In this document: positions 1 through 57,698 of the stretch, piece by piece | Position numbering within the stretch: position 1 is the stretch's first letter | Layout of the letters: each line of letters begins with the position of its first letter | Assembly: GCA_951230915.1 (NCBI GenBank) | Contig: OX579636.1 | Location: forward strand, 6,463,001-6,527,000 | Reading direction: 5' to 3' | Length of the DNA: 64,000 nt | Source: Antitrichia curtipendula | Taxonomy: Eukaryota; Streptophyta; Bryopsida; Hypnales; Leucodontaceae | Program-made: the position numbers and the translations under genes | Notes under the pieces: generated by a model | Database searches by the model: none | The model's input: only the letters and a program-made list of their open reading frames with translations | Told to the model about the DNA's origin: nothing

Positions 1-1131
1 GCATAGGTTGACATGTGGAGGCCACGTAAGCGCCATGTCAGCGCCACATGCTCGACCACTGCCATGTCATCTTTTTTTCCATCCATGCCATTGCTGATGT
101 GGTCTTTGACGTGGAGGCGGGAAATTGTGACGTGGTCATTGACGTGGAGGCGGGAAACTGTGACGTGGTCACTGATGTGGAGGCCACGTCAGCTCATTTT
201 TGTGTCATTTGAATAATTTAATGGTGTTTCTTGAGATGTCAAATTAGACATTTTTTGCAACGTCAAATTACACGTTTTTTCAAACATCAATTGCTACATA
301 CCCTACCTACAAGGCAATATCAATAAAAATTTAATATAAATTAGAAAAATGAAATGAACAAGAAAATTTTTTGAATTCAACAAAAATTGAAGAAAACTTA
401 CCATCAACCATTAAGAGAATTTTTAATGGCCAAATGAAGGAATTACTTCATTAAAAGTTAATAAAAATGAAGGATAAGGACATTGTATTTATATCCATAC
501 TCTGCCCATGGAAAGACAAACAATATGGGATAAGTAGAATATGGTTATTTCACTTGTTTACATGATGTTGTTTTTGACGTGTATATGTTTTTTTAAACAT
601 AGAGATGTTGTTTCAAACATCTCAACGTTTTTGTGGACATTTCACTTTGAACACAATTTTTTTTTGATATATCCCATATCAATTGTCTCTCTTCCACCTC
701 CCCACCTGTATAAAGACTATCTATTTTCATCCATGGAACACATCCATTTTCATCCATCCATTTTTCTTTTTTTTTAAAAGCATGCCACGTCATTGCCTTT
801 TTTCTAAATTTTTTATATAAGGTCAATATTTTTCCATTGACCATAGTAATTTTTAGTAATTTATCCATAATGAAAATGGACTTCATGCTGACGTGGTAGT
901 CTATGTTTTTTGAGATGTCATAACAAAACATCAGCTTATTTTTTTAAACATCGTTAAAAACATCTTTGTCCATGGTGACATCTACTTGTTTTCCAACTTA
1001 ATCTCACACGTTTTTTGCAACATCAAATCAAATTCATTCTTTTGCACCCGTTCACTGCTTAACGCGTGACATCTCAACAAACATGGCACGTTGCACTGCA
1101 ACGACAGCAAAAATGGGGTTTTCTTCTAGTG
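1..1131 (-). mobile_element. CACTA-like non-autonomous element, one end only
   Basis: This is a near-identical inverted copy of the complete element at 20218-21513, cut by the left edge of the window. Its inner end at 1119-1131 reads, in reverse complement, CACTAGAAGAAAA, the En/Spm (CACTA) type of terminal repeat, and differs by one base from the perfect 13-bp ends of the other copy. The subterminal part is full of short ACGTGG / CCACGT words and 'aacatc' words in both orientations, as expected for transposase-binding subterminal repeats. No open frame of convincing quality lies inside; the short open frames are shared with the other copy and are not gene-like. The missing outer end, about 200 bp, lies left of the window. 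Confidence 0.8.
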
Positions 1132-5281: not shown

Positions 5282-5720
5282 CAGGGTTGTCTTGTCGGAC
5301 GGGTTTTCGGGTTTCGGTGACGTATTAGACGTGTCGCGTTGCATGTCGTATATGACATGTGTCGAATATAGGCGACAAATGCGTCGCAAAAAAATTTAGG
5401 GTTTTGAAGTTTTTTACCCCATGGTAAATGGATTTGTCCTACGTGTCTGGTTGTCCGCAGTGACGTGGAAAGACAGAACCACGTCAGCTTGGACGACTGC
5501 GGATTAGGGCGCGTGCGGGTCGGGGCAGAGCGACTACGGGTCCAAGAACCAGGGCGACTGCGGCTTCTGGAAGTGGGGCGACTTCGGGTCCGTAGTCTAT
5601 GGGCGACCGCGGGTGGGGGATGGATTGGGCAACTTCGGGTACCGAGTGTGTGGGCCATTGCGACTACGTGTCAGGGGCGACTGTAGGTCCAAGGGCGACC
5701 TCACTTTGGGCGACCGCAAG

Positions 5721-5918
5721 TAGAGAGAGTCCCTTTCTGCCCAAATGAAGGAATGGAGGAGACTTCGGGTCTTGGGCGACCTTGGGTAGAGAGAGTCCCT
5801 TTCTGCCCAAATGAAGGAATGGAGGAGACTTCTGGTCTTGGGCGACCTCGGGTAGGGAGAATCCCTTTCTGCCCAAATGAAGGAATGGAGGAGACTTTGG
5901 GTCTTGGGCGACCTCGGG
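5721..5918. repeat. 66-bp tandem repeat, three units
   Basis: Units start at 5721, 5787 and 5853, each exactly 66 bp, and differ by a few substitutions. Each carries GAGAGTCCCTTTCTGCCC, GGAATGGAGGAGACTT and one GGGCGACC..GGG word. The period is a multiple of three, so three frames stay open across it; these are not genes. Confidence 0.9.
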
Positions 5919-5928
5919 TAGTCCCACC

Positions 5929-6330
5929 ACCACCCAAGGTCGCCCAAGACAAGAGGTCGCCCTAAGAGGTTGCCCAAGACAAGAGGTCGCCTACCCGAAG
6001 TCGCTTAGACCCAAAATCGCTCCTTAAACACAAAATTTGACCAATTTTGAGACAAAGACAAATGAATGGCTCCCACCACCACCCGAGGTCGCCCAAGACA
6101 AGAGGTCGCCCAAGACAAGAATTCTCCTACCTAAAGTCGCCTAGACCCGAAATCGCTCCTTAAACACAAAATTTGACCAATTTTGAGACAAAGACAAAAG
6201 AAGGGCTCCCACCACCACCCGAGGTCGCCCAAGACAAGAGGTCGCCCAAGACAAGAGTTCTCCTATCCGAAGTCGCCTAGACCCGAAATCACTCCTTAAA
6301 CACAAAATTTGACCAATTTTGAGACTGCGG
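5929..6330. repeat. About 136-bp tandem repeat, nearly three units, inside the hAT-like element
   Basis: The marker AATCGCTCC / AATCACTCC recurs at 6015, 6151 and 6287, giving a 136-bp period. Each unit includes TTTGACCAATTTTGAGAC and CACCACCACC followed by GTCGCCCAAGACAAGAGG. The same unit reappears in inverted orientation at about 8850-9110, giving the element its partly symmetrical plan. Confidence 0.8.
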
Positions 6331-8600: not shown

Positions 8601-8831
8601 CTTGGATCCCATGAATTTCAAACTTGAATTTCCCTCCTTCCTAGACCCTAGGTCGCCCCACCCGCAGTCGCCCCTGCCTTGGATTCCATGAATTTCAAAC
8701 TTGAATTTTCCTCCTTCCTGGACCCGAGGTCGCCCCACCCGCAGTTGCCCCTGCCTTGGATTCCATGAATTTCAAACTTGAATTTCCCTCCTTCCTGGAC
8801 CCGAGGTCTCTCCACCCGCGGTCGCCCCTAC
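8601..8831. repeat. 77-bp tandem repeat, three units
   Basis: Units start at 8601, 8678 and 8755. Each holds CATGAATTTCAAACTTGAAT, a CCTCCTTCC block and GACCCGAGGTCGCCCC-type words, so the family word GGCGAC..CGGGT is built into the array. Confidence 0.85.
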
Positions 8832-9514
8832 TGCCGATTTTGGGAATTTGAATCAAATTTTGTGTTTAAGGAGCGATTTCGGGTCTAGGCGACTTCGGGT
8901 AGGAGAACTCTTGTCTTGGGCAACCTCTTAGGGCGACCTCTTGTCTTGGGCGACCTCTTAGGGCGACCTCATGTCTTGGGCGACCTCGGGTGGTGGGAGC
9001 CATTCTTTTGTCTTTGTCTCAAGATTGGTCAAATTTTGTATTTAAAGAGCGATTTCGGGTCTAGGCGACTGCGGGTAGGCGACCTCTTGTCTTGGGCGAC
9101 CTCGGGTCCAGCTTGGGCAACCGCGGGTCCAAAAGTCTACCCAAAGTCGCCTCAGCCGCGGTCTCCCTTATCCACATTCTCCCATACCCATGTTCTTCTA
9201 CCCGCGGTCGCCTACACCCGTGTTCTCCTATCCGCGCTCGCCCCCACCGAAGGTCGCCCTTACACGAAGTCGCCCCTACCCGTGATCGCTGTGTACCCGA
9301 AGTCGCCCGTCCACGTCACACCCGCATGCGCCCCTAAAATGTGCCACGCGGACGCCACATGGCATCCACGTGGCTTAGGTAAAAGGGGGGTAATTTATTA
9401 AAAAGTCAAAGGTAAATTTGACTTTATGTGACATTGCGGAGGGTCTACTAGATGTCACGTGACGTCTATCTGTCGCGATGTCGCCAGGTCGCGCAGAACA
9501 ACCCTGAAGTGGAG

Positions 9515-19597: not shown

Positions 19598-21884
19598 CTA
19601 AGGTACCTGGATAGGTTGCAAAAAGCAAGACCATGATGGATAGATACCATCTGTCAACAAGTGGTACCGTTGGTACAAATGACCATTGACCTCGAAGGTG
19701 ATGTCATTTCCTTCACCTCGTAGTAGATTGTGTACAAGGGGTGAGCAGACATTGAGGTTGTTGTTGCCCCTTGGCAACCCGAAGAAAGCATGCCAAATCC
19801 AAAAGGATTGATCAGCTATGGCCTCTAGAATAATGCTACGAAGCCCATCTTTGTCTTGGAACTGTCCTTGCCAAGCAACCGGACAATTCTTCCAAGTCCA
19901 ATGCAGGCAATCTAAACTACCAAACATACCTGGGAAGCCACGAACAGTATTAATGTTTATTTGCCTATGCAAATCATCCAAGGTTGGTTGCCTCAAAAAA
20001 GTAGACTGGAAGCAACCGCAAATAGCAACCGCAAATGGCAACCACAAAACGTTTCATGGCCTCATTCGCAGTACTCTCCCTCGTGCGGCAATACTCATCT
20101 ATGGCATCTGCCGGAATACCATAGGCAAGCATTCTTATAGTTGTACTGCATTTCTGTAAGGCAGATAACCCTAACTGCCCCACGGCATCACACCTTTGAA
20201 CAAACCAAGGGTCAAAACACTATAAGAAAACCCCGTTTTTGTTGTCGTTGAACCAAAACGTGCCATGTTTGCTAAGATGTCACGCGTTAAGCAGTGAACG
20301 GGTGCAAAAGAGTGAATTTGATTTGATGTTGCAAAAAACGTGTGAGATTAAGTTGGAAAACAAGTAGATGTCACCGTAGACAAAGATGTTTTTAACGATG
20401 TTTAAAAAAACAAGCTCATGTTTTGTTGTGACATCTCAAAAAACATAGACTACCACGTCAGCATGAAGTCCACTTTCATTATGGATAAATTACTAAAAAT
20501 TACTACGGTCAATGGAAAAATATTGACCTTATATAAAAAATTTAGGAAAAAGGCAATGATGTGGCATACTTTCCAAAAAAAAGAAAAATGGATGGATGAA
20601 AATGGATGTGTTCCATGGATGAAAACAGATAGTCTTTATACAGGTGGGGAGGTGGAAGAGAGACAATTGATATGGGATATATCAAAAAAAAATTGCGTTC
20701 AAAGTGAAATGTCCACAAAAACGTTGAGATGTTTGAAACAACATCTCTATGTTTAGAAGAACATGTACACGTCAAAAACAACATCGACATGTAAACAAGT
20801 GAAATAACCATATTCTACTTATCCCATATTGTTTGTCTTTCCATGGGCAGAGAATGGATATAAATACAATGTCTTTGTCCTTCATTTTTATTAACTTTTA
20901 ATGAAGTAATTCCTTCATTTGGCCATTAAAAATTCTCTTAATGGTTGATGGTAAGTTTTCTTCAATTTTTGTTGAATTTAGAATTTTTTTTTGTTCATTT
21001 TATTTTTTTAATTTATATTAAATTTTTATTGATATTGCCTTGTAGGTAGGGTATGTAGCAATTGATGTTTGAAAAAACATGTAATTTGACGTTGCAAAAA
21101 ATGTCTAATTTGACATCTCAAGAAACACCATTAAATTATTCAAATGACACAAAATGAGTTGACGTGGCCTCCACGTTACAGTTTCCCGCCTCCACGTCAA
21201 AGACCACATTAGCAATGGCGTGGATGGAAAAAAAGATGACGTGGCAGTGGTCGAGCATGTGGCGCTGACATGGCGCTTACGTGGCCTCCACATGTCGACC
21301 TTTGTAGACCTTTGTTCACCTTGTCATGTGTGACATCAGGAAAAAACAAGCTTGGAAACGACGCGTTTTTTGTGATTTTTGCACGTTTTTTGCCCGTCAA
21401 TTCAAACGGATTTTAGGAGACATCTCCGCCGATTACTTCTGCGTCAAACAAGACGTCGTCTGATCGTCTCATGTTTTCTGCAACATAAAAAAAACACCTG
21501 TTTTCTTATAGTGAAAGCGCATACTTCTTGCACAATGTGCAAGAATAGCTCTCTCCTCATGCCATAGTGACGTCTGAATTCGGATGCATCGAAAGTGCAA
21601 TCTTCTACAAAATAATCTTGAAACAAGCGTTTGTGGCCAACTTCCCTCTCCCTCAACACATACCTTCTCCCAAGTGTGCTACCTCCATGTCGAGATCTGG
21701 CTAAAGATGAAGCCCCCTCAAGCGCTTGGGAGAGCAAATTCTGGATCAGCTCTTCTTTATATTTGCCATCAGAGGATGATTCTTCAAGCCCTTCTACAAT
21801 AGCTCTCTTCGCCACTACTCCATGAGCACTCCAACAGCACCCCAATAGCACCCAAAAAACACCCCAACGACACTCCAACAGCAC
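19598..21884 (-). pseudogene. PIF/Harbinger DDE nuclease gene, split by a CACTA insertion
   Basis: The minus-strand frame starts near 21884 and runs through FRRHYGMRRELFLHIVQEVC to 21514, is interrupted by the CACTA element, and resumes at 20217 with FDPWFVQRCDAVGQLGLS, IRMLAYGIPADAIDEY and MKRFV. After a frameshift near 20035, caused by a short duplicated GGTTGC-type repeat, it continues with GMFGSLDCLHW (first catalytic Asp), FFGLPRGNNNLNV and YHLTDGIYPSW. The second catalytic Asp, normally in NNDxNV, is Asn here. The frame then stops at 19598, before the region that should supply the third acidic residue. With the inserted DNA and one target copy removed the frame across the junction reads VCAFDPW without a break, so the gene was still in frame there when it was hit. 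Confidence 0.82.
20218..21513 (+). mobile_element. Complete CACTA-like non-autonomous element, 1296 bp
   Basis: Perfect 13-bp terminal inverted repeats CACTATAAGAAAA (20218-20230 and, inverted, 21501-21513) are flanked by the 3-bp duplication AAA (20215-20217 and 21514-21516). Both features are standard for CACTA/En-Spm elements. The interior carries subterminal ACGTGG/CCACGT words and no transposase. It is nearly identical, inverted, to the partial copy at 1-1131, which suggests recent activity driven from elsewhere. Confidence 0.9.
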
Positions 21885-23972: not shown

Positions 23973-23976
23973 TTAA

Positions 23977-26900
23977 CCCCTTGAGGACTGAGCTGGTTTC
24001 GGCGGTTCAGGGATTCCAAAAGGGTGCTGACATATGAAGCTAGGTCGGAGGGAGAGGGTGGTTCGAATGACCAAACTGACCGTACAGATCTGGTCTACAT
24101 GTGATGAGGTTTGGCACATATTTTTTTTAAATTATTTGAACTGGTGGATTCTCATATTTTAATGAGATTTCACAATGACCGGGTACGGTAGACTGGGTAG
24201 ATTTTAGGGCACAAAGTCATGCAAAAATTCATAGAAAATGCTTCAACTACGAGAATGATTTTTTTTTTTTTCGTGACTCTTACCTGGACACGTAATCTAA
24301 ACATCTTCGAAGAAACCTTGGACAAACAAGGAGGTACGAATATACTGAACACCTCCAAAGTCAAGGCATTCGGAGCGTATAAATGGAGTTGACTAAACTC
24401 AATTATTTGCAGTAATTTCAAATTTCACTTTCCCTGCAAATGCTCCTGCCAACAACTACGCAACTAGTTCGTCTGCAAGTAGAAAAAAAAAAATTTGAAC
24501 CAGCAGATTGGCTCTGATCTTTCTTCAAAAGGCACATGCGTGTCAGCCAGCCACATGCCGGGTATTATGACGATTCCCGGACCTACACAAACAGGGAAAA
24601 GTTGGGGACCGGGTATTCTTTGAATTAGCCCCTGCCAAGCAGTGCGGGAACGAGTACACATCTAGCGGGAACCCAGCCATATTCTGCGGGAACGCATCTC
24701 TGCAAGAGACCATCGACGGCTGACGATGGCATGCACGACAGAAACGAGGACAACGTACACAGCCAGACGCGGGAAGGGAACTCCAAAACCAACGACCAAC
24801 TGCCTCCCATACGCTCTCTCCACGGGCATTCCACCAAGCTGCGGTAGCTCACACAAAACACACCCAGTCTCAATAATGCAACCACGAATTGCAAAGACTG
24901 ATACTGCCTTATCAACCTCGGTATGTCATGAGAGGTCGCAGCAGTGGCGGGAGTAGTAAAATCCGGCCCGTGCACTTCGGTGGTCTTGCTCGGCAGACAT
25001 TCGATGCCACACTGGCAACAACATTCAATGTTCAGAATTTACCTCCACGACCGGTTGAGGTCGGATCACAGACACATGCAACAACTTCGGCGCCACAAAC
25101 GTAATGCAAGACAACTCGGGACGGTGAGAACAATATGAAACTCGTATACATAAAAAATGGGAGGTACATTGTTTGACTCACTGTATTCATCAAAGGTGTT
25201 CACAAAAATTGAGTTCTACATCAATCTACAACCTCGGAGGAGCTAACGGTCTTCACTGCGACTCCTAAGTCTCAGTTATCCCTGCCAAATCATCGACAAC
25301 CCAATCACGATCCCATGGAGAAGGATTGCTCTCGAGCCAAGTGGCAAACGGCGTGTCGGCTGGGGTGAATTGCGCCTCGTCCTTCGTCCAAACTTGACAA
25401 CCCAAAACCGAGCCTCCACTACCAACGTCGTGCATCTGTTTCGGCGTGCCTGCAAAACATGGAGGAAATACACTACCACTTACTGAGAACACGAGCCGCC
25501 CACTTAGCTTTACTGTGAGCTTTGATAAAGCAATTGCCCTCGCAGATGTATTTCCATCCACAACCTTTGCAAATTCGAACTTGTTTTCTACCACAGATTC
25601 TACATTTACAGCGCTTCTTCTGAGGGTGCCGCATGCTGTAGTGCAACCCTTTCCTGATTGGAAAACCTTTGAATACCGTGCGGCCAACCTTGATGGAACC
25701 CGTGGTCAACCAACCTGCAATCGCATGGTGGTAGGCCTTCCGTGACAGGGGACGAACACCTCTGCATGCGCAGTCTAACTCATACAACACGTATGAGTTG
25801 CCCAAACTGGTATCCACTACAAACATCAGAAGGCGGTGCCACCATTTGTTTGTGCGGATTTGACAAGTATAATTAGCCCGCTTCTGGTCGACAACATCTA
25901 TGCCCCTCATGTGAGTCACGTACTCCAAAATCATGGGACATGTAGGTAGCACTACGTGACGGCTATGAATCCACCTTTGAGTGAAACAATTGATAGCTAC
26001 TGGACTACTATGAGTACTCAAGAAGTGCACTACTTGCGAGTCAAACCAGCACACGGTTGCCATCTGCTGCGCCGCATGCATTTTTGAGAAAAGACTTCCC
26101 CGACTCTCTTTGTCATTCCTATGATGCCCTGTCAGACTTTTGGAAAAGAACTTGGCATTGCTTTTGCAGGTGCTTGTAGCAAAGAAACCCTTGGACAGGA
26201 GCGTATCAAACAGTTTTATCCCCGTGAAAAAGTTGTCTACAACTATGCAATGGCCACGGTGCGACAAGTCATCCGTAAGGCGCAACACTACTTGAGCACC
26301 CATGAGCTGATCACTACGGACAGACTCTGCGCTTGCACCTACGTAAACTTCGAAGTTCCAAACATAACGAGTTACTGAACAAGCAGTAGCAAAAACTTTT
26401 ATGCCATATTTTACTGGCTTGTTCATCATGTACTGCTGAAACGAACAGTACCTACCCTTGTATGCTATCATAATTTCATCTACCGTCAAAAATTTCTCGG
26501 GATTCAGCAGTTTCTTACAGAGACCTACAAAACTCTCAAGCAGCCATCGCACCTTCCCCAGTTTGTCAAAACGAGGATTTGAGCGATCTGTGCACACCTT
26601 TGTACTGTCCACGAGATGGATATTCCTCAAAATGCTCAAAAACCGATCTTTGGACATTACATTCCTAACAATTGGGCAACCGAAGAACGAATCTTGGGAC
26701 CAATAATCTTTTAGCGCTGGCTCACTCTTCAAGCCAAGGAACACGACAATCCCTAACCAAGCCTTCAACGATTTCACAGTCACCTTCTTCCACTTGGGTC
26801 CTCCATTTGTCCTATCGCTACTTTTGCCACGAATGCTACCTTTATAAACAACCTGACTTGCATACAAATTGGTTTGTAGAACTATTTCCTCTAGAGTGGC

Positions 26901-29308
26901 TTTGGGCCAGAACAATGAGAAGAACGACTGCACTTCAGGTTTCCGTCGACCATAGAATGAAGTGGGACCAGGTCTGGGGCCACTAAACGTTTGACGAGAA
27001 CCTTTGAAAATCCAGTCAGTGCTCTCCCATTTGGAGTCAACATACTTCTCCTCAAACAGAAGGTACTCAACGTCTTGTGAATATACTCCTATCTCCCCAA
27101 GCAAATCTAAGGGTTCAGCAACCAAATTCTCCAATTCACTAGCAGAAGAGTATGGGTCGGCTTCAGGGAAGTCATGAAATACAGCCTGCCAATCGCTGTT
27201 GTCTGACTCATCGGACAAATCTTCAGGCAGGCACATTGCTTTCACGGGGCTGCCAAAAATTGGGCCGCCTAAAGTGTGACTCCTCGAGACAGATTTATTC
27301 TGAAGGCCAAAGACTGACGTACCTGCAAGTGAGTCCGACGGAGTGACCACGGGAAGTTCCCCCACAGTGGTAGACTTGTTCTTCTTGGGCTTGTACAATC
27401 GGTTGCCCGGGTAGATGCCACATTTCGCGAGGAAGTCTTCGGAGAAGACATCGCTGCCCGAGTCAGAATCCCGTGCATGATCAGTGTCGGAGCCAGAACT
27501 CTGCACTTGCTGTTTTCGATGTGGTGCATCGTCTCCTCGCGGCAGTGGTCGAATGCCGTCATATTCTGCCAAGGCCATCCGGGTACTCAAGTCAATGCAA
27601 TCTGCTGCATGAATGTCTACCAATCCAGTTGTCCCTGAAAAGTTCACGCGATAAATCTCTTCTCCAGTTGCCATGTCTAAGTGCATTGAGTGAATGCTTG
27701 CCAGGAAACGATCAATGTGTGCCCATTTTTTAGGCACCCCGACCAACTTGGCTGCTGGAATGAAGACCTCGCGTGGGAATTCGCCGGGGGCATAGAGGTC
27801 ACGATGATTCCCAATTTTTGTCCGGGTGACTGAAGGCAGTGCAAGCTGGGACCCTTCAACGAAATCATCGCCTCCATTGTCTGTTGCCTCCCCAGTGCAT
27901 GCACCCTCCAAAGCTTTGGAAGGTGTGTCTCCGAAATTGATAGCTTGTCGCGATTTATTTCGTAGTTGAGGTGGGGTGCGATGCAAGCTTTGAAGAAGTG
28001 GCGCCGTCCAATCCTTTGGCGTGGTCGGCGGTGTTTGCAGTGGCGCTTCCGCCTCTGCCCCAACTTTTGCGCCTTGTCCCCTCCGTCTTCTCCGCCCAGC
28101 AACAGCTCTCCGTCCGTGACTGCTAGGAAGAGCAGTGGCCCTGGCGCGTGCTGGCAATTGATGGGTGCCAAGGGCCTTGCCTTCGTCATTGGTCACTGCG
28201 GCGGGCCCTCTTGCTTGCGCCCCCCTCTTCGCCGGATGCGCCCTCCTCTTCCGCTTCTTCAACCTCTCGTGCTCGGGCGACCCTGCCTCCCAGTCCAAAG
28301 TTGGAGAACTGCAATGCAGATCCTCTGGCGCTCTTGGTCGTGCGGGAGACAATGCCACTTCGACAACTTCCGCACTCTCTTTGTGGCCACTGGCGACCTC
28401 GCCACTAATTTTCCCACAGCCCTCACCATTCCGGCAAACCCTAATGTCAGGCCACAGTCGGTCCCTCACAACGTGCAAGATTTCTTCGGGGAACGGCCGT
28501 TGCTCACACCAACCCAAGAACCCAGCCCAGACCTGTAGAACTTGTGGCGCCACTCTCGAGCAGAAGGATTCTTTGGGAGTTTCCGACTACCCCTCTTCGT
28601 CGGAAGTGTTCGCAGGAATTCCTCACTCATGCACCCCACAATTCTTGCAATTGTAATGGAATTCTGAGTTTGCGTTCGGGCATACTTCTCAATTATACCT
28701 GCTTCCAATGCCAAGTTCGGTGGTGGTACAGGCAGCTCCCCAGATGTGTCCATCGTTGATGCGGCCGCCAAGCGCACCTCTCGCAGCTCTCAAACGTGCC
28801 CTTGTACTTCAAGCGCACTAAGAAACAGCATTCCTCAAACCACTCCCAACACTCATTTCGTGAACCCCCTCTTACAAGGACGCGCAGCAATTCTAGCAAT
28901 CTCCCAAGAGAGTGGAGCGAGGTATCCAAGACGGAGCGAGGCGCAGTTTTTGAACTTGTGGCGGGAGTAGCGCCAGCTGAAGGTGACTCAGCACACGCGG
29001 GTCTACTCCAACGGCTTCGGCGCGACCATAGCGAGTAGGTACCCAACCCGGAAATTTCCCACCCATCCCGTGCAAATGTATGGGGTGACGTAGGCTCAAA
29101 CCCGGCCCGGTCCTGTCTGAAGCTCCGTGGAAACTGAATTATAAAATCAGTGTAAAATGAGGGTTTGTTTTTTTTACAGATCAAATTCCCAAATCGACAA
29201 CCTCATGTGATTTAAAGCAACTTTGTTATTTACACTTTGTGCAAATTTGTTTCGGATTCCTCTGCACATATTGTGCAAATTTTCTCTGAGGACACAGTCT
29301 TCAAGGGG
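23977..29308 (-). mobile_element. Complete piggyBac transposon with transposase (5.3 kb)
   Basis: It is flanked by TTAA at 23973-23976 and 29309-29312. The terminal inverted repeats match at 13 of 14 positions: CCCCTTGAGGACTG at the left, reverse complement CCCCTTGAAGACTG at the right. A single long transposase gene runs on the minus strand (25473-28553). The coding part is clearly richer in G+C than the surrounding AT-rich DNA. The 1.5 kb between the left end and the gene, and the 0.75 kb between gene and right end, are probably untranslated and regulatory; short frames there (for example 24625-24975) are not recognisable. Confidence 0.92.
25473..28553 (-). CDS. piggyBac transposase, 1026 aa, apparently intact
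   Basis: This enzyme excises and inserts piggyBac elements at TTAA by a cut-and-paste mechanism that leaves no footprint. Residues 1-500 are long, low in order and charged, with basic clusters KKRKRR (about 99-104) and RRRRR (about 154-158) that could be nuclear localisation signals. The DDE_Tnp_1_7 core spans roughly 525-930. All expected acidic residues are present: Asp692 in FLTVDE, Asp773 in CIVVDNFF, and Asp886 and Asp889 in RGIDVVDQ. NKPVKYGIKVF (711-721) and RTNKWWHRLL (900-909) are further family motifs. A Cys-rich zinc-binding tail follows (CKCRIC at 982-987, CKGC at 995-998, Cys1004, Cys1008). At 1026 residues it is longer than the 594-residue insect protein, mainly through the N-terminal extension. 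The first Met of the frame was taken as the start; an upstream exon cannot be excluded. A possible 34-nt splice or frameshift at 25450-25483 would add about 70 residues. Confidence 0.9.
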   Translation of the reverse strand: MAPQVLQVWAGFLGWCEQRPFPEEILHVVRDRLWPDIRVCRNGEGCGKISGEVASGHKESAEVVEVALSPARPRAPEDLHCSSPTLDWEAGSPEHERLKKRKRRAHPAKRGAQARGPAAVTNDEGKALGTHQLPARARATALPSSHGRRAVAGRRRRRGQGAKVGAEAEAPLQTPPTTPKDWTAPLLQSLHRTPPQLRNKSRQAINFGDTPSKALEGACTGEATDNGGDDFVEGSQLALPSVTRTKIGNHRDLYAPGEFPREVFIPAAKLVGVPKKWAHIDRFLASIHSMHLDMATGEEIYRVNFSGTTGLVDIHAADCIDLSTRMALAEYDGIRPLPRGDDAPHRKQQVQSSGSDTDHARDSDSGSDVFSEDFLAKCGIYPGNRLYKPKKNKSTTVGELPVVTPSDSLAGTSVFGLQNKSVSRSHTLGGPIFGSPVKAMCLPEDLSDESDNSDWQAVFHDFPEADPYSSASELENLVAEPLDLLGEIGVYSQDVEYLLFEEKYVDSKWESTDWIFKGSRQTFSGPRPGPTSFYGRRKPEVQSFFSLFWPKATLEEIVLQTNLYASQVVYKGSIRGKSSDRTNGGPKWKKVTVKSLKAWLGIVVFLGLKSEPALKDYWSQDSFFGCPIVRNVMSKDRFLSILRNIHLVDSTKVCTDRSNPRFDKLGKVRWLLESFVGLCKKLLNPEKFLTVDEIMIAYKGRYCSFQQYMMNKPVKYGIKVFATACSVTRYVWNFEVYVGASAESVRSDQLMGAQVVLRLTDDLSHRGHCIVVDNFFTGIKLFDTLLSKGFFATSTCKSNAKFFSKSLTGHHRNDKESRGSLFSKMHAAQQMATVCWFDSQVVHFLSTHSSPVAINCFTQRWIHSRHVVLPTCPMILEYVTHMRGIDVVDQKRANYTCQIRTNKWWHRLLMFVVDTSLGNSYVLYELDCACRGVRPLSRKAYHHAIAGWLTTGSIKVGRTVFKGFPIRKGLHYSMRHPQKKRCKCRICGRKQVRICKGCGWKYICEGNCFIKAHSKAKWAARVLSKW

Positions 29309-29312
29309 TTAA

Positions 29313-37801: not shown

Positions 37802-39468
37802 CACTTAATGTCAATGACACTAATCTAGCACGTGATTGTTTCAGGGGCAGTTTATTACTGCCGTGAGTGGGAAGTGAAGCGAAAGAGCGAAGGAACCTCC
37901 ATGAGCAGCAGGGCAAGAGCTGATCCCCGATTGGTGACGAGCGCCGCGGCTGAAATCCGAACCGAAACGTGGCGCGTGAACACTAGTGAACCCCACCCCG
38001 GAGTCAAACCCGATCGTAGCCAGCATCTAGAAACAAACCCACCCCAGCAGTCACTTAACGACTACGAAACCACCAGCTGGGCTCGATTGCAGCACACGAG
38101 AATCATCAGTCCCAGAGCGTTAACTGAAAATGAAGGCGCTGCAAGACAGAATTGAAGCCTAGAGCCCAGCGCAACATGTATACTAGTAACTTAATGAACC
38201 GCCGCGCCGTGCCTGCAATGGCGGCGTTCACAACTCAGGGGCTCGTAGATTGATGAGCTACAACCAAACGGGACCCAACCCCGGGACTAATTTTCTATCC
38301 GCATGCAACAATGATGCGTTTGCGGCCCCACTAGCTCACCCGACCCCCACATAAAACAGTTTGAGGCTCTTGAAGTTCAAACGCATGTATCCAATACAAC
38401 TCGATCGCCCGCTCGGGAGCACCACTTGTCTCAGCCTCGTCCATCATCGCCTTGGATCGTGCCTGCAGGGCGCAATAACGCACTTTAGTCTCACTGCCAA
38501 TTTGCTTACTTATTACAAGTTGACAACGAGATTCCTGGGCTCTCGTATCAGCTTGCGGCACCGGGGAAGAGACCAGCCTTTCCTTTCATCGCGTTGCGGG
38601 GCCATGTCTAGCTAGCTAGTGCTTACTTGACTCTTTTGCTTTCCCCTCCGCACGTCGCGTCGTCGAGCCAACCGGCTGCACTCGGTGTGAAAGCGAAAGC
38701 GGCGTGGGATGGGATCGCTCTTCCCCACGTGGAGATTCTCGTGAATCTAGATTCGCGGAAGCGCTGGGTTAGTATTGTGTCTGTTTCGGGGGTCTGATCA
38801 CCGTAGATCGTTTGCGGCTAGTTTGATTGTGGGGCGTTTGTTGATCGAGTAGGTTAAGTACGTGTGAAATCAGTATCCTGGGGTTGCTCACGGAACGCGA
38901 GAGATTGATTACGTCGCCTTGCGGATGTTATAAATTTCGGGATTGGAAGGGGCATTCTGTTTTGAGTACATCTGGGTTATTTCTTGCGTTCTAGATCATC
39001 ACATCATTCCCTTTCAAGCGGTCATAGCCATCCGTGTCCATTTTTCCCAAAAATAGAGTGTCGGTTCGAGATCAGGCCTACTGCGATTTTTTTGTCTAGT
39101 CGTTTTCCTGGTCCAAAGGCACGGAGTGTGACTTCCTGAACGTTCCTCTGTGCAGTTGTAGCGTTTCCGGGAGCTTGTAGCGTCTCTCTCGCCGTTGCCG
39201 TGACTTACTGCAAGTTTTTAGTTGCTGATCGTTTGGAGCGTCGAAACTTGGTAAACTAGCCGTATTTGAAAACATCAACACGTATGCGCACCCCTTCATG
39301 TCTTCCTACGCAAGCGAGGAATAGCATTAAAAAGCTGCTCGGGGAAGAGTTTTGCAGTTGGAGTTTGCTTTAGGACACTGCGCGCAACTACTCAAGTGAT
39401 CAATTTTCTCTCTGTCTTGACTAGTTGTGATTTGTGAAATCGGTCACTCTTCACACTAGCATCTGATT
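37802..39468 (+). promoter_or_regulatory. Less AT-rich upstream region of the dioxygenase gene
   Basis: From about 37860 the base composition changes sharply from AT-rich to balanced and richer in CG dinucleotides, and stays so into the dioxygenase. This probably includes the promoter and 5' leader. No TATA box or transcription start can be fixed. Frames such as 37832-38155 encode nothing recognisable. Confidence 0.4.
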
Positions 39469-42400
39469 ATGCCACCGATGAAACCCGCTGCTCACAAATT
39501 GCATGAAACCCCGAAGCGTTACCCTAGTTTTCTCCACCGTGGACAGAGCGACAATTACTCATGCGGCCTGCGTCCCGAAGCAGTGAAGTCCAATCTGCTC
39601 CGTGGCGCGAGTGAGGACCTCTCCGAATTCATCTGGCCCCAGGACCAATGGCCTTCGGTCCTCCACAACGATTTCCAGTTGGCGCAGGAGCTTCCGACAG
39701 TGGACCTTTCGGCTCTGCCAACAGGAGACTCCACAGCCAGAGCCAAGATGGCAGAGGATCTGGTGAAGGCCTTCTCGGAATGGGGGTTCGTGCAAGTGAT
39801 CGGTCATGGTGTGTCCACGGAGGTCATGGAGATAATGCAGGCCCAAGCAAGGAAGTTCTTCGACTTGCCGCTGGAGCAGAAGGAGAAGGGTGTTGCCAAA
39901 AGCTCCAGCAAGCACGAAGGCTTCGGCTATGGCGTTGAGAGCGGCTTCTTCTACGCGGGCAAGCCCTGGATTGACCGGTTTCAGTGCAGGTGGAGCCCGG
40001 TTTGTGAGATTCGGGAGCCTGTGGAGAAGGTGTTCACCCCGTCCGAAGCTGAAGAGTTCAGGTACTCCAAGTTCCCTGCTCTTCGATCAGGTCTCGACCC
40101 CCTGCAACTTAATTTTTGATTCGTCTTGTTCACATTGTCTCGTATGTGCATCGTATACCGTCGACACACCTTTCTATTACTGAAGTCTCAGTTGAAAATG
40201 CTTTCTGAGTCATGAAAGGATTACAGCACTGTCAAAGAATGTTTTGTTGATTTTTGCTCAATATTAGTTTCTGTTGATTTTTGCTGAATGTTTATTGGTT
40301 TGGGTGATCTGTGGTTGGTGTACGATGTTAGTTTCTGGACTATATTCTGATGTTCTGTTTGTGAATTATTTGCGCAGTAATAGCATCGAAGAGTACAATG
40401 GCCGTTTGGACCTCCTGGCAACCCAGATTCTGGAGCTTTCTGCACAAGGACTGGGGCTGGCACAGGACACGTTCACGAAGCCTTTCAATGGCACGGCCGG
40501 GGACTGTATTGCTCGCATGAACTACTACCCCCCATGCCCGCTCTCCTCCCTCACGCTGGGCCTTGGAGCACACACCGATCCCAACCTGCTGACCATTTTG
40601 AGTCAATGCAAAGTGGGTGGATTGCAAGTGTGCAAGGATGGGACCTGGATTTCAGTACGACCCAAGCCGGACACGCTCATCCTCAACATCGGCGATACTT
40701 TTGAGGTATGTAAACGACGTACTTACTGCAACTCGTACTACTGTCGCTATGCAACTGAATTAAGGGACTTGATAATTGTAACCAGTACATGGCTCGATTT
40801 TTGCAATTCTTTTTTGTGGTGGTATAACATTGATTCGATCAATTCGTCAGGGAAACTAGCTTGTCCGTTGGAATTCGATAAGGAGTGCAACCGCCCACGT
40901 ACATTGACTGCAACATTGCAAGTAGTTCCATCTCTTTAATTTGCAATTGGATTTTGATTATTATCATCAGGACCTGGGCCGATTCTTCACTTCATTTTTG
41001 TCGTGGAATACTGTTCGCTAGGAAACTTGTTCCGTAGAGAGTGCAGCCTCCGACACTGTGTGACTGCAACATCGCGAGTAGTGCTGTCTCTTTGCAACTG
41101 GATTTTGATAATTGTGATCGGGACTTGGCTCGAGTATTTATTGACTTTATTACGTTGGTACTCCGAATGATATAATTCGTCAAAGGACATTGTTTCGGTA
41201 GAGAGTGTTTTTTTCCTGTCAGTCAACGTGTGAGTATAGCTACAAAAGGGAGTGTAGCCTGTCCGGAATGTTGTTTGCCAGTGTTCTGGATTTTTCAAGG
41301 ACACCGTGCAACAGTGAGCCGGTCTGGTACCCACTTTGCCAACAGTATCTTCCATCATCCGATCCATGGTATTCTGAAATTAGCTCCTCTTCGCAAGGAC
41401 AGTATTTGGGAGCTGGGACTTGGTAGTTTCAGACTTCTGAGGTCATTTAGTAGAATTGATTGAATGGTTTTGTACTGGAACTAATTAATCAATGAACATG
41501 TGACCCTTCTGTGCTTGCATTTAGCGTAGTAGCATGTTGTTTCAGAAACACGCAATGACATGTCCTACCTGCCACCCTTATCATCGTTACCAAATCAATT
41601 TGCATTACTTTTCTCACTTTGGTCAGTAAACTATAACCGATTGTATTGGAACAGAGTTGGTACTTGGTACGTCTTCTTATTATGCAACTTAATATTCAGA
41701 TTCAGAATGGATAAATTTCTGCCAATAATCAATTCTAGCAGTCTAAATTTAGATTTTTCACCTTAAAATGCATTTCACCACCTGGCAGTTTTCACCACGA
41801 ATCAGGTAATCTGTCAACTGTAGCTAGGTACCCAGTCCTGTCTTAACTTAGTTGAGACGCCGTTAGAGGTGGAGGATAAGGAAGGAGTCTGTAAAAGTGA
41901 CCTGGCTCTAAAAGCAACCTCTAACACAGAGGTATAGTTTACTTTCTTCAATGTACCAATGCATTTCAGTAGGGGGCGCTTTTAGAAACCAGTGCGCTTC
42001 AACTTTAAAATTTGCAACTAATTCCACGCAGTTCCAAAAAGTATGAAACGACTTGCATTAGATGCCAATTCCATTTTTCTTCCTAGTAAAATTTACTGAG
42101 AATTGTTCCAAGGAGTTTAGCTTCCCTGAAAATGCAATCAGCTCTTAAAGGGTTGCTTTAACCCTTGAACGTCGACGAGGACGTTCTGCGTCCTTTGAAT
42201 GACATAGAATCTTTCTCTACAGGACAAAAGTGCAACTTTTCATCCTCAGTATTAAGAGTGGAAAGGAAAGATCTTTAACAGTTCTTTAACTTCCAAAGAA
42301 TATATTAGGCTTTTTCATAAGTAGATGATGTCACACGGAATCAAAATACAGGATTTCCACGGCTACAGGTCCGTCCTTCAAGGGTTAAGAGCCTCCTACC

Positions 42401-57614: not shown

Positions 57615-57698
57615 TGTCAGCAGTGGGGTTCGAACCCACGCCCCCTTACGAAGACCAGAACTTGAGTCTGGCGCCTTAGACCACTCGGCCATGCTGAC
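57615..57698 (-). tRNA. tRNA-Leu (anticodon CAA)
   Basis: The 84-nt gene folds into a class II cloverleaf. The acceptor stem pairs GTCAGCA with TGCTGAC and discriminator A. The D arm includes the A box TGGCCGAGTGG. The anticodon stem CCAGA/TCTGG encloses loop CTCAAGT, so the anticodon is CAA and the tRNA reads UUG. A long variable arm follows, and the T arm GTGGG-TTCGAAC-CCCAC carries the B box. There is no intron and no encoded CCA, as expected for a nuclear gene. It serves cytosolic translation. Confidence 0.95.

Follow-up and report, generated by a model that had tools for sequence, protein, structure and literature searches.

A defective piggyBac element in a probable moss genome and its apparently working relatives with two overlapping genes

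Introduction

When a piggyBac element with clean ends and a long open transposase frame is met in a plant genome, is it a complete and young transposon, or a remnant whose working relatives lie elsewhere? An earlier note on the DNA analysed here had taken the element to be complete, intact and young. PiggyBac is a leading tool for footprint-free gene delivery. In animals the element has one gene, and a single transposase gene is the usual piggyBac layout.

Published records of piggyBac already extend to land plants. A repeat table of the fern Ceratopteris richardii lists 1230 PiggyBac repeats (PMC6890710), piggyBac is described as known from insects, fungi and plants (PMC10813416), and PiggyBac is counted among the superfamilies found in all taxonomic groups studied (PMC4438587); in the available part of a fourth source, "piggybacking" occurs as a word only (PMC10619864). 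Land-plant piggyBac elements as such are therefore already on record. Literature titles and abstracts, whose coverage was partial and is no proof of absence, contained neither a native moss element of this type nor one with two genes.

Here, we report with good confidence that the element is a defective piggyBac in a plant genome, very probably that of a moss, and that it has apparently working relatives with two overlapping genes, the first of which (ORF1), conserved but with no earlier description, is a putative helper of the transposase encoded by the second (ORF2).

Results

The window is the whole stretch of 64,000 nucleotides that was analysed, and corresponds to positions 6463001–6527000 of contig C4 in an assembly of 400,189,583 bases and 303 contigs. 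The element at 23977–29308 is a piggyBac insertion of 5332 bp, here assigned to family A, with its genes on the minus strand. It is flanked by TTAA target-site duplications at 23973–23976, on the 3′ side of the genes, and at 29309–29312. Its terminal inverted repeats are CCCCTTGAGGACTG at the 3′ end (23977–23990, plus strand) and CCCCTTGAAGACTG at the 5′ end (29295–29308, minus strand), which match at 13 of 14 positions; a repeat finder returned an inverted repeat of 19 nt, TTAA included, that is 95% complementary. The same 3′ end recurs in the copies L010, L011 and L012, and close variants of it in L005, L015 and L022. Because three further copies, ~98% identical, carry the same two termini beside TTAA elsewhere in the genome, a chance origin of these ends is excluded. 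Short terminal inverted repeats starting with CCC are present in the family of the window and in two other families, B and C, described below; in family C the two ends pair imperfectly.

The body of ORF2 is the open frame of 1026 codons at 25473–28553 (minus strand). It contains the DDE_Tnp_1_7 catalytic domain (25791–26927, minus; Pfam E = 4.3e-73), the four catalytic Asp codons (26480–26478, 26237–26235, 25898–25896 and 25889–25887, minus) and a Cys/His-rich C-terminal tail (residues 982–1013; 25515–25610, minus). Among PDB structures the transposase matched piggyBat (E = 1.8e-29) and piggyBac (E = 1.1e-27). Asp 692 and Asp 773 are conserved columns in all 25 aligned proteins, and Asp 886 and Asp 889 are conserved in 24 of the 25, P0017 having a gap there. 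By inspection, the alignment rows that reach the tail have Cys/His columns in common; no Pfam zinc-finger match in the tail exceeded the cut-off. Thus, the piggyBac identity given in the earlier note holds on each of the features it named: the exact TTAA flanks, the 13-of-14 match of the ends, the domain with its four Asp residues, which are real and fall in conserved columns, and the Cys-rich tail, which is present in the alignment.

Residues of about 262–328 (27570–27770, minus) gave a weak match to a predicted Tudor- or chromo-barrel-like domain. A model of residues 225–350 had a mean pLDDT of 63.5, with block means of 76–89 in the core. The top 50 Foldseek matches were mostly Tudor, tandem Tudor, MRG chromo-barrel and PWWP domains, all weak (best E = 0.036), and none of the 790 matches to this model reached an E value of 0.001. 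Going by the predicted fold, ORF2 may have a Tudor-like domain; a chromatin-reading role for it is a guess.

A DNA search of the genome recovered three close copies besides the window: L010 (C1:12765553), with a frame break within ORF2; L011 (C8:3338421), with two stops; and L012/L014 (C1:16961762), a single copy with a 712-bp internal deletion. L010, L011 and L012 each occupy their own site with TTAA on both sides. Another copy on C5 (L013) covers only part of the element and differs by about 11%. A protein search of the assembly gave at least 48 matches (the best 45 of 1142 candidates were scored); among these best 45, no row with at least 50% protein identity other than the window has a whole unbroken frame. 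Near-identical copies of the kind sought after the earlier note do exist, in families B and C (~99.9% identity); the relatives of the window copy itself are ~98% identical and broken.

Family B comprises three full-length copies, L051–L053, on C6, C2 and C10 (first read as L040, L039 and L048, respectively). Over about 5.6 kb they differ from one another by 1–4 mismatches and at most one gap; their flanks differ, TTAA stands on both sides, and each has an open frame of 1086 codons. Family C has two full-length copies, L049 (C1:6543000–6549300) and L050 (C1:6493800–6500100), which are 99.89% identical over 5469 bp. A third, partly read copy on C8 (L056) also belongs to family C and is not an independent lineage. 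All five full-length copies of the two families have TTAA flanks on both sides. Since near-identical copies of B and C lie at different TTAA sites, piggyBac appears to have been active in this genome recently, and judged by the identity of their copies both families are apparently working and have recently jumped. The recent activity suspected earlier would therefore belong to families B and C, and not to the window copy.

L049 and L050 lie only 50 kb apart in opposite orientation, a possible local hop.

Families B and C share 41–45% protein identity with the window over the catalytic half. Another 42 rows showed 66–74% DNA identity to family B (from the best 40 of 98 candidates), a few of these rows being pieces of one copy. 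The range of relatives in the genome indicates that many piggyBac lineages coexist. The piggyBac population is thus a diverse one, with dozens of further piggyBac-like places, of which several have long open frames.

ORF1 is present in all lineages that were read at the 5′ part. Its conserved stretch follows the pattern ..WRHKFYRxVAGFLGWC..F..E..LxxVRxxxWxD.., and an alignment of the ORF1 sequences of families A, B and C has invariant residues that include LGW, F, R and W.D. The frame runs through the conserved stretch in L005, L013, L015, L028, L029 and L035, with stop codons inside the stretch in L013 and L028. ORF1 was also present at five of five further places, of which L056 is the family C copy; the sequence at L057 has decayed, and that at L055 has diverged strongly. 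Computed over the first 74 codons, all outside the overlap with ORF2, dN/dS was 0.10–0.36 in all 21 pairs among seven family-A-type copies.

ORF1 had no match of weight in Pfam (best E = 0.067), none among PDB sequences up to E = 10, and no structural match for its predicted model, which is of low confidence and helical, with a mean pLDDT of 52 (about 61–88 in the helix regions). Four ORF1 homologs, P0024–P0027, were found in databases, and an ORF1 profile found nothing in the 23 database transposases P0001–P0023. The database frames derive from DNA, and unfused frames there are compatible with splicing or frameshifting.

Whether ORF1 and ORF2 are two proteins or one turns on the region where they meet. 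ORF2 conservation begins right where the conserved ORF1 domain ends, and the same +1 offset is found in family A members without a 1-bp deletion, in families B and C, and in further lineages, as would suit a single protein made by +1 ribosomal frameshifting or through a very short intron. However, an ATG leading into ORF2 lies just behind the conserved ORF1 stretch in all nine family-A-type copies read, and nearby in B and C; in the six family-A-type copies without the 1-bp deletion it stands in the +1 frame relative to ORF1. In L010, L011, L005, L015 and L035 the frame from this ATG stays open to the end of the segment, at least 125 codons; in the decayed copies L013, L028 and L029 it closes after 7, 35 and 50 codons, respectively. 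By eye, moreover, family A leaves less than about 60 nt for an intron.

The reach of ORF1 beyond this point also speaks against a single protein. The ORF1 frame remains open past the ORF2 ATG for 163 codons in L040, 170 in L049, 164 in L058, 119 in L054, 83 in L055, 70 in L035 and 82 in L005, and the third frame over the same overlaps has 3–10 stops in these seven loci. When ORF2 was shuffled synonymously, the probability of so long an open ORF1 frame was 0/5000 for L040, 0.0002 for L049, 0/5000 for L058, 0.003 for L054, 0.032 for L055, 0.0012 for L035 and 0.14 for L005. A stricter local shuffle gave P = 0.0014, 0.0068, 0.0002, 0.021, 0.022, 0.026 and 0.15 for the same loci in the same order. 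The test leaves out the decayed L015 and L029; the decayed L057 was scored and was uninformative (P = 0.52). L015 and L032 are one place and count once in this analysis. Across the seven loci ORF1 runs 70–170 codons beyond the ORF2 ATG. The results point to an ORF1–ORF2 overlap that is kept open in six of them, where it is longer than is usual among the shuffles; L005 is the exception. On these grounds we infer that ORF1 is a separate protein product, and we regard a fused protein as the less probable arrangement, though the strongest of the rivals.

Two specific ways of joining the frames were rejected by eye. A canonical −1 ribosomal slip at a conserved GGGTTT is in the wrong phase and leads into the wrong frame, and a simple intron between ORF1 and ORF2 is a poor fit, the conserved stretches nearly touching.

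The two genes of the window copy are both damaged in the start region. ORF1 is a remnant of 95 codons from the conserved ATG at 28753 (28466–28753, minus), truncated by a 1-bp deletion near 28528 that is common to L010, L011 and L012. ORF2 is open for only 56 codons from its conserved ATG at 28429 (28259–28429, minus), and a 10-bp deletion near 28373, private to the window, puts this ATG out of frame. The transposase frame described earlier as uninterrupted is indeed open for 1026 codons, but it starts with GTG and reaches its earliest ATG only at codon 290 (27686).

A third lesion affects the 5′ end, where a private 13-bp deletion breaks the subterminal palindrome that adjoins the 5′ terminal repeat and leaves one arm (29287–29296, minus; 13 bp missing). 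The palindrome (GAGGACACAATGTGTCCTC or nearly so) is kept in all eight other family-A-type copies with the 5′ end read, two of which have a single arm base altered. Its counterparts are GGGGACA..TGTCCCC in family B and GAGGACA..TGTCCTC in family C. Both terminal repeats of the window are themselves present despite the loss. With small deletions in the start region and the 5′ end compared with the other copies, the description of the element as complete and intact does not stand: the window element is a defective copy, a fossil.

Families A, B and C have an asymmetry in common: the palindrome was seen at the 5′ end of the genes but at none of the 3′ ends that were read.

Nor is the window copy especially young, as had been supposed. 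The nearest copies are 1.65–1.8% away by K2P, and the six pairwise distances among the window and its three close copies all fall between 0.0165 and 0.0184, a star pattern. If substitutions are assumed to accrue at about 1e-8 per site per year, the distance corresponds to roughly 0.8–0.9 million years. Substitutions were polarised against the majority base of the four family A copies. Pooled, these comprise 72 non-synonymous, 29 synonymous and 2 stop changes (70:28:2%), against a neutral expectation of about 65:31:3%; the synonymous share does not deviate in the pool (p = 0.46), and in the window alone it is too low (p = 0.03). The private coding changes of the window (25 non-synonymous, 4 synonymous, 0 stop) give no sign of purifying selection on its transposase. 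With 29 coding changes, about one to two stops are to be expected; finding none is unremarkable, and the open frame does not by itself prove that the gene functions. C>T and G>A changes make up 138 of the 172 counted over the four copies and 39 of the 47 private to the window element, 32 of the latter lying in CpG or CHG context. Family A decays neutrally. The C>T-rich decay fits a silenced, methylated element, in which methylation would be the cause, and the family was presumably spread by transposase acting in trans.

These observations bear on the possibility that the window copy is intact and autonomous after all, its N-terminus coming from a 5′ exon joined by splicing or from initiation at a codon other than ATG. 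In favour of this, all catalytic residues are kept in a DDE frame that is open throughout, and AG/GT-like sequence is seen by eye near the frame break. However, the start lesions are deletions compared with relatives in which ORF1 continues and the transposase frame is entered from the ORF2 ATG, and one of them is private to the window copy; its substitutions show no purifying selection; and its 5′ palindrome is broken. We therefore consider autonomy of this copy improbable. That the element is a host gene domesticated from piggyBac is still less credible, for even though all four catalytic Asp residues are kept, the element is bounded by terminal repeats and TTAA duplications, has copies at unrelated places and decays neutrally.

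The remaining alternative is that the sequence came from an animal, a fungus or an alga, and piggyBac is indeed best known outside plants. Against this, the window lies inside a contig of 46.9 Mb, related copies are found on C1–C10 and C173, and the same assembly carries plant Lhc genes; contamination can be set aside as very unlikely, and the placing of the element in a plant genome is upheld. The assembly gave 53 matches to the chlorophyll-binding family. The best matches of the L044 protein were chain 9 of 8htu (E = 7e-133) and chain 9 of 7xqp (E = 6.7e-126), followed by the next at 1.4e-101; we take both chains to be Lhcb9 of Physcomitrium patens, a protein that is moss-specific to our knowledge. 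A second Lhc protein (L041) matched 9vfj first and then 8htu and 7xqp, and a CP24-type protein (L047) matched four other CP24 chains, 5xnl first. The host is a plant, very probably a moss; the moss placing draws on one gene, the two other Lhc genes having singled out other structures as best. No relative of the element was found in the prokaryote genome contigs scanned, as expected for a plant element.

The earlier note described every other transposon gene of the window as broken; of ten other frames scanned, one matches a transposase family, as a fragment. This lies at 19598–20053 (minus; Pfam Plant_tran, E = 8.4e-47) and is presumably of PIF/Harbinger type. Two near-identical frames of 116 codons, at 593–943 (minus) and 20406–20756 (plus), lie about 20 kb apart in opposite orientation; by eye they probably represent a different repeat, present in two copies. 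A 2OG-Fe(II) oxygenase gene is represented by pieces at 39460–40939 (plus), with DIOX_N and 2OG-FeII_Oxy in two frames, perhaps because the gene is split by introns. A tRNA gene lies at 57615–57698 (minus; Rfam, 59.5 bits), and tandem repeats of 66, 136, 77 and 30 bp, with GGTCGCCC-type motifs in common, lie at 5526–6325 and 8601–9280.

Discussion

In a tree of 39 catalytic pieces, built without L022, L024 and L026 (pieces of at most 229 residues), family A and the database protein P0001 form a clade (100/100). Families A and B group with P0001 and P0017 (94/94); 16 database proteins make up a neighbouring clade (100/100), and the animal piggyBac and piggyBat pieces are far off. Long branches were flagged, those of family B and P0017 included, which makes the position of family B uncertain. 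Sequences from this genome do not make up a single clade, as P0001 and P0017 fall among them. P0001 (Logan) shares 74% identity with the window transposase over residues 480–1026. Of the ORF1 homologs, also from Logan, P0024 and P0025 resemble the ORF1 of family A by eye, and P0026 and P0027 that of family C; P0001 and P0024–P0027 are on short contigs. The unnamed DDE_Tnp_1_7 proteins P0004–P0016 (ENA, JGI and Logan) share 34–38% identity with family B over the catalytic half, and by eye most have similar sequence before it. They belong to the separate clade of 16 rows, and the ORF1 profile matches none of them.

With piggyBac of Trichoplusia ni (PDB 6x67) and piggyBat (PDB 9c0f), the elements of this genome share transposase homology, the four Asp residues, TTAA and short terminal repeats; a Cys-rich tail and asymmetric ends are also features of the animal elements. 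The transposase described here, with 1026–1086 open codons, is nearly twice as long as the solved chains of 6x67 and 9c0f (594 and 578 amino acids), and the present piggyBac differs further in its possible Tudor-like domain, its overlapping second gene and its 5′ subterminal palindrome. In the lineages with the 5′ part read, ORF1 precedes and overlaps ORF2, and the single-gene layout is not what was found. Since a single gene is usual but not defining, we keep the element within piggyBac and call it a variant; ORF1 and ORF2 are read as a two-gene variant of piggyBac. The PIF/Harbinger elements are likewise DNA transposons with a transposase gene and a helper gene, which in their case is Myb-like, but their transposase belongs to a different family, and ORF1 is unlike their helper in having no Pfam or PDB match of weight.

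How might such an element work? ORF1 would encode a domain of about 100 residues, conserved and predicted to be helical, followed by a variable tail. Where this domain ends, ORF2 would begin at its own ATG in the +1 frame, and would encode a DDE/D transposase whose catalytic core is preceded by a possible Tudor-like domain and followed by a Cys-rich tail. The ORF2 protein would cut the TTAA-flanked ends and reinsert them at TTAA, and the ORF1 protein may act as a helper, for example in end binding or nuclear delivery. A wider proposal is that mosses harbor a living, diversified, two-gene piggyBac, in which ORF1 overlaps the transposase gene by up to ~170 codons, its conserved protein acts together with a transposase that carries a domain resembling a chromatin reader, and families are still jumping. 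We put this forward tentatively, as a reading that may well not hold in every part.

Seen together, the neutral C-to-T decay of family A and the fresh copies of families B and C make a clear case of the loss and replacement of transposon lineages within one genome. The near-identical, full-length plant copies are natural candidates for a plant-adapted piggyBac. Finally, the overlapping ORF1 makes it testable whether a piggyBac transposase ever needs a partner.
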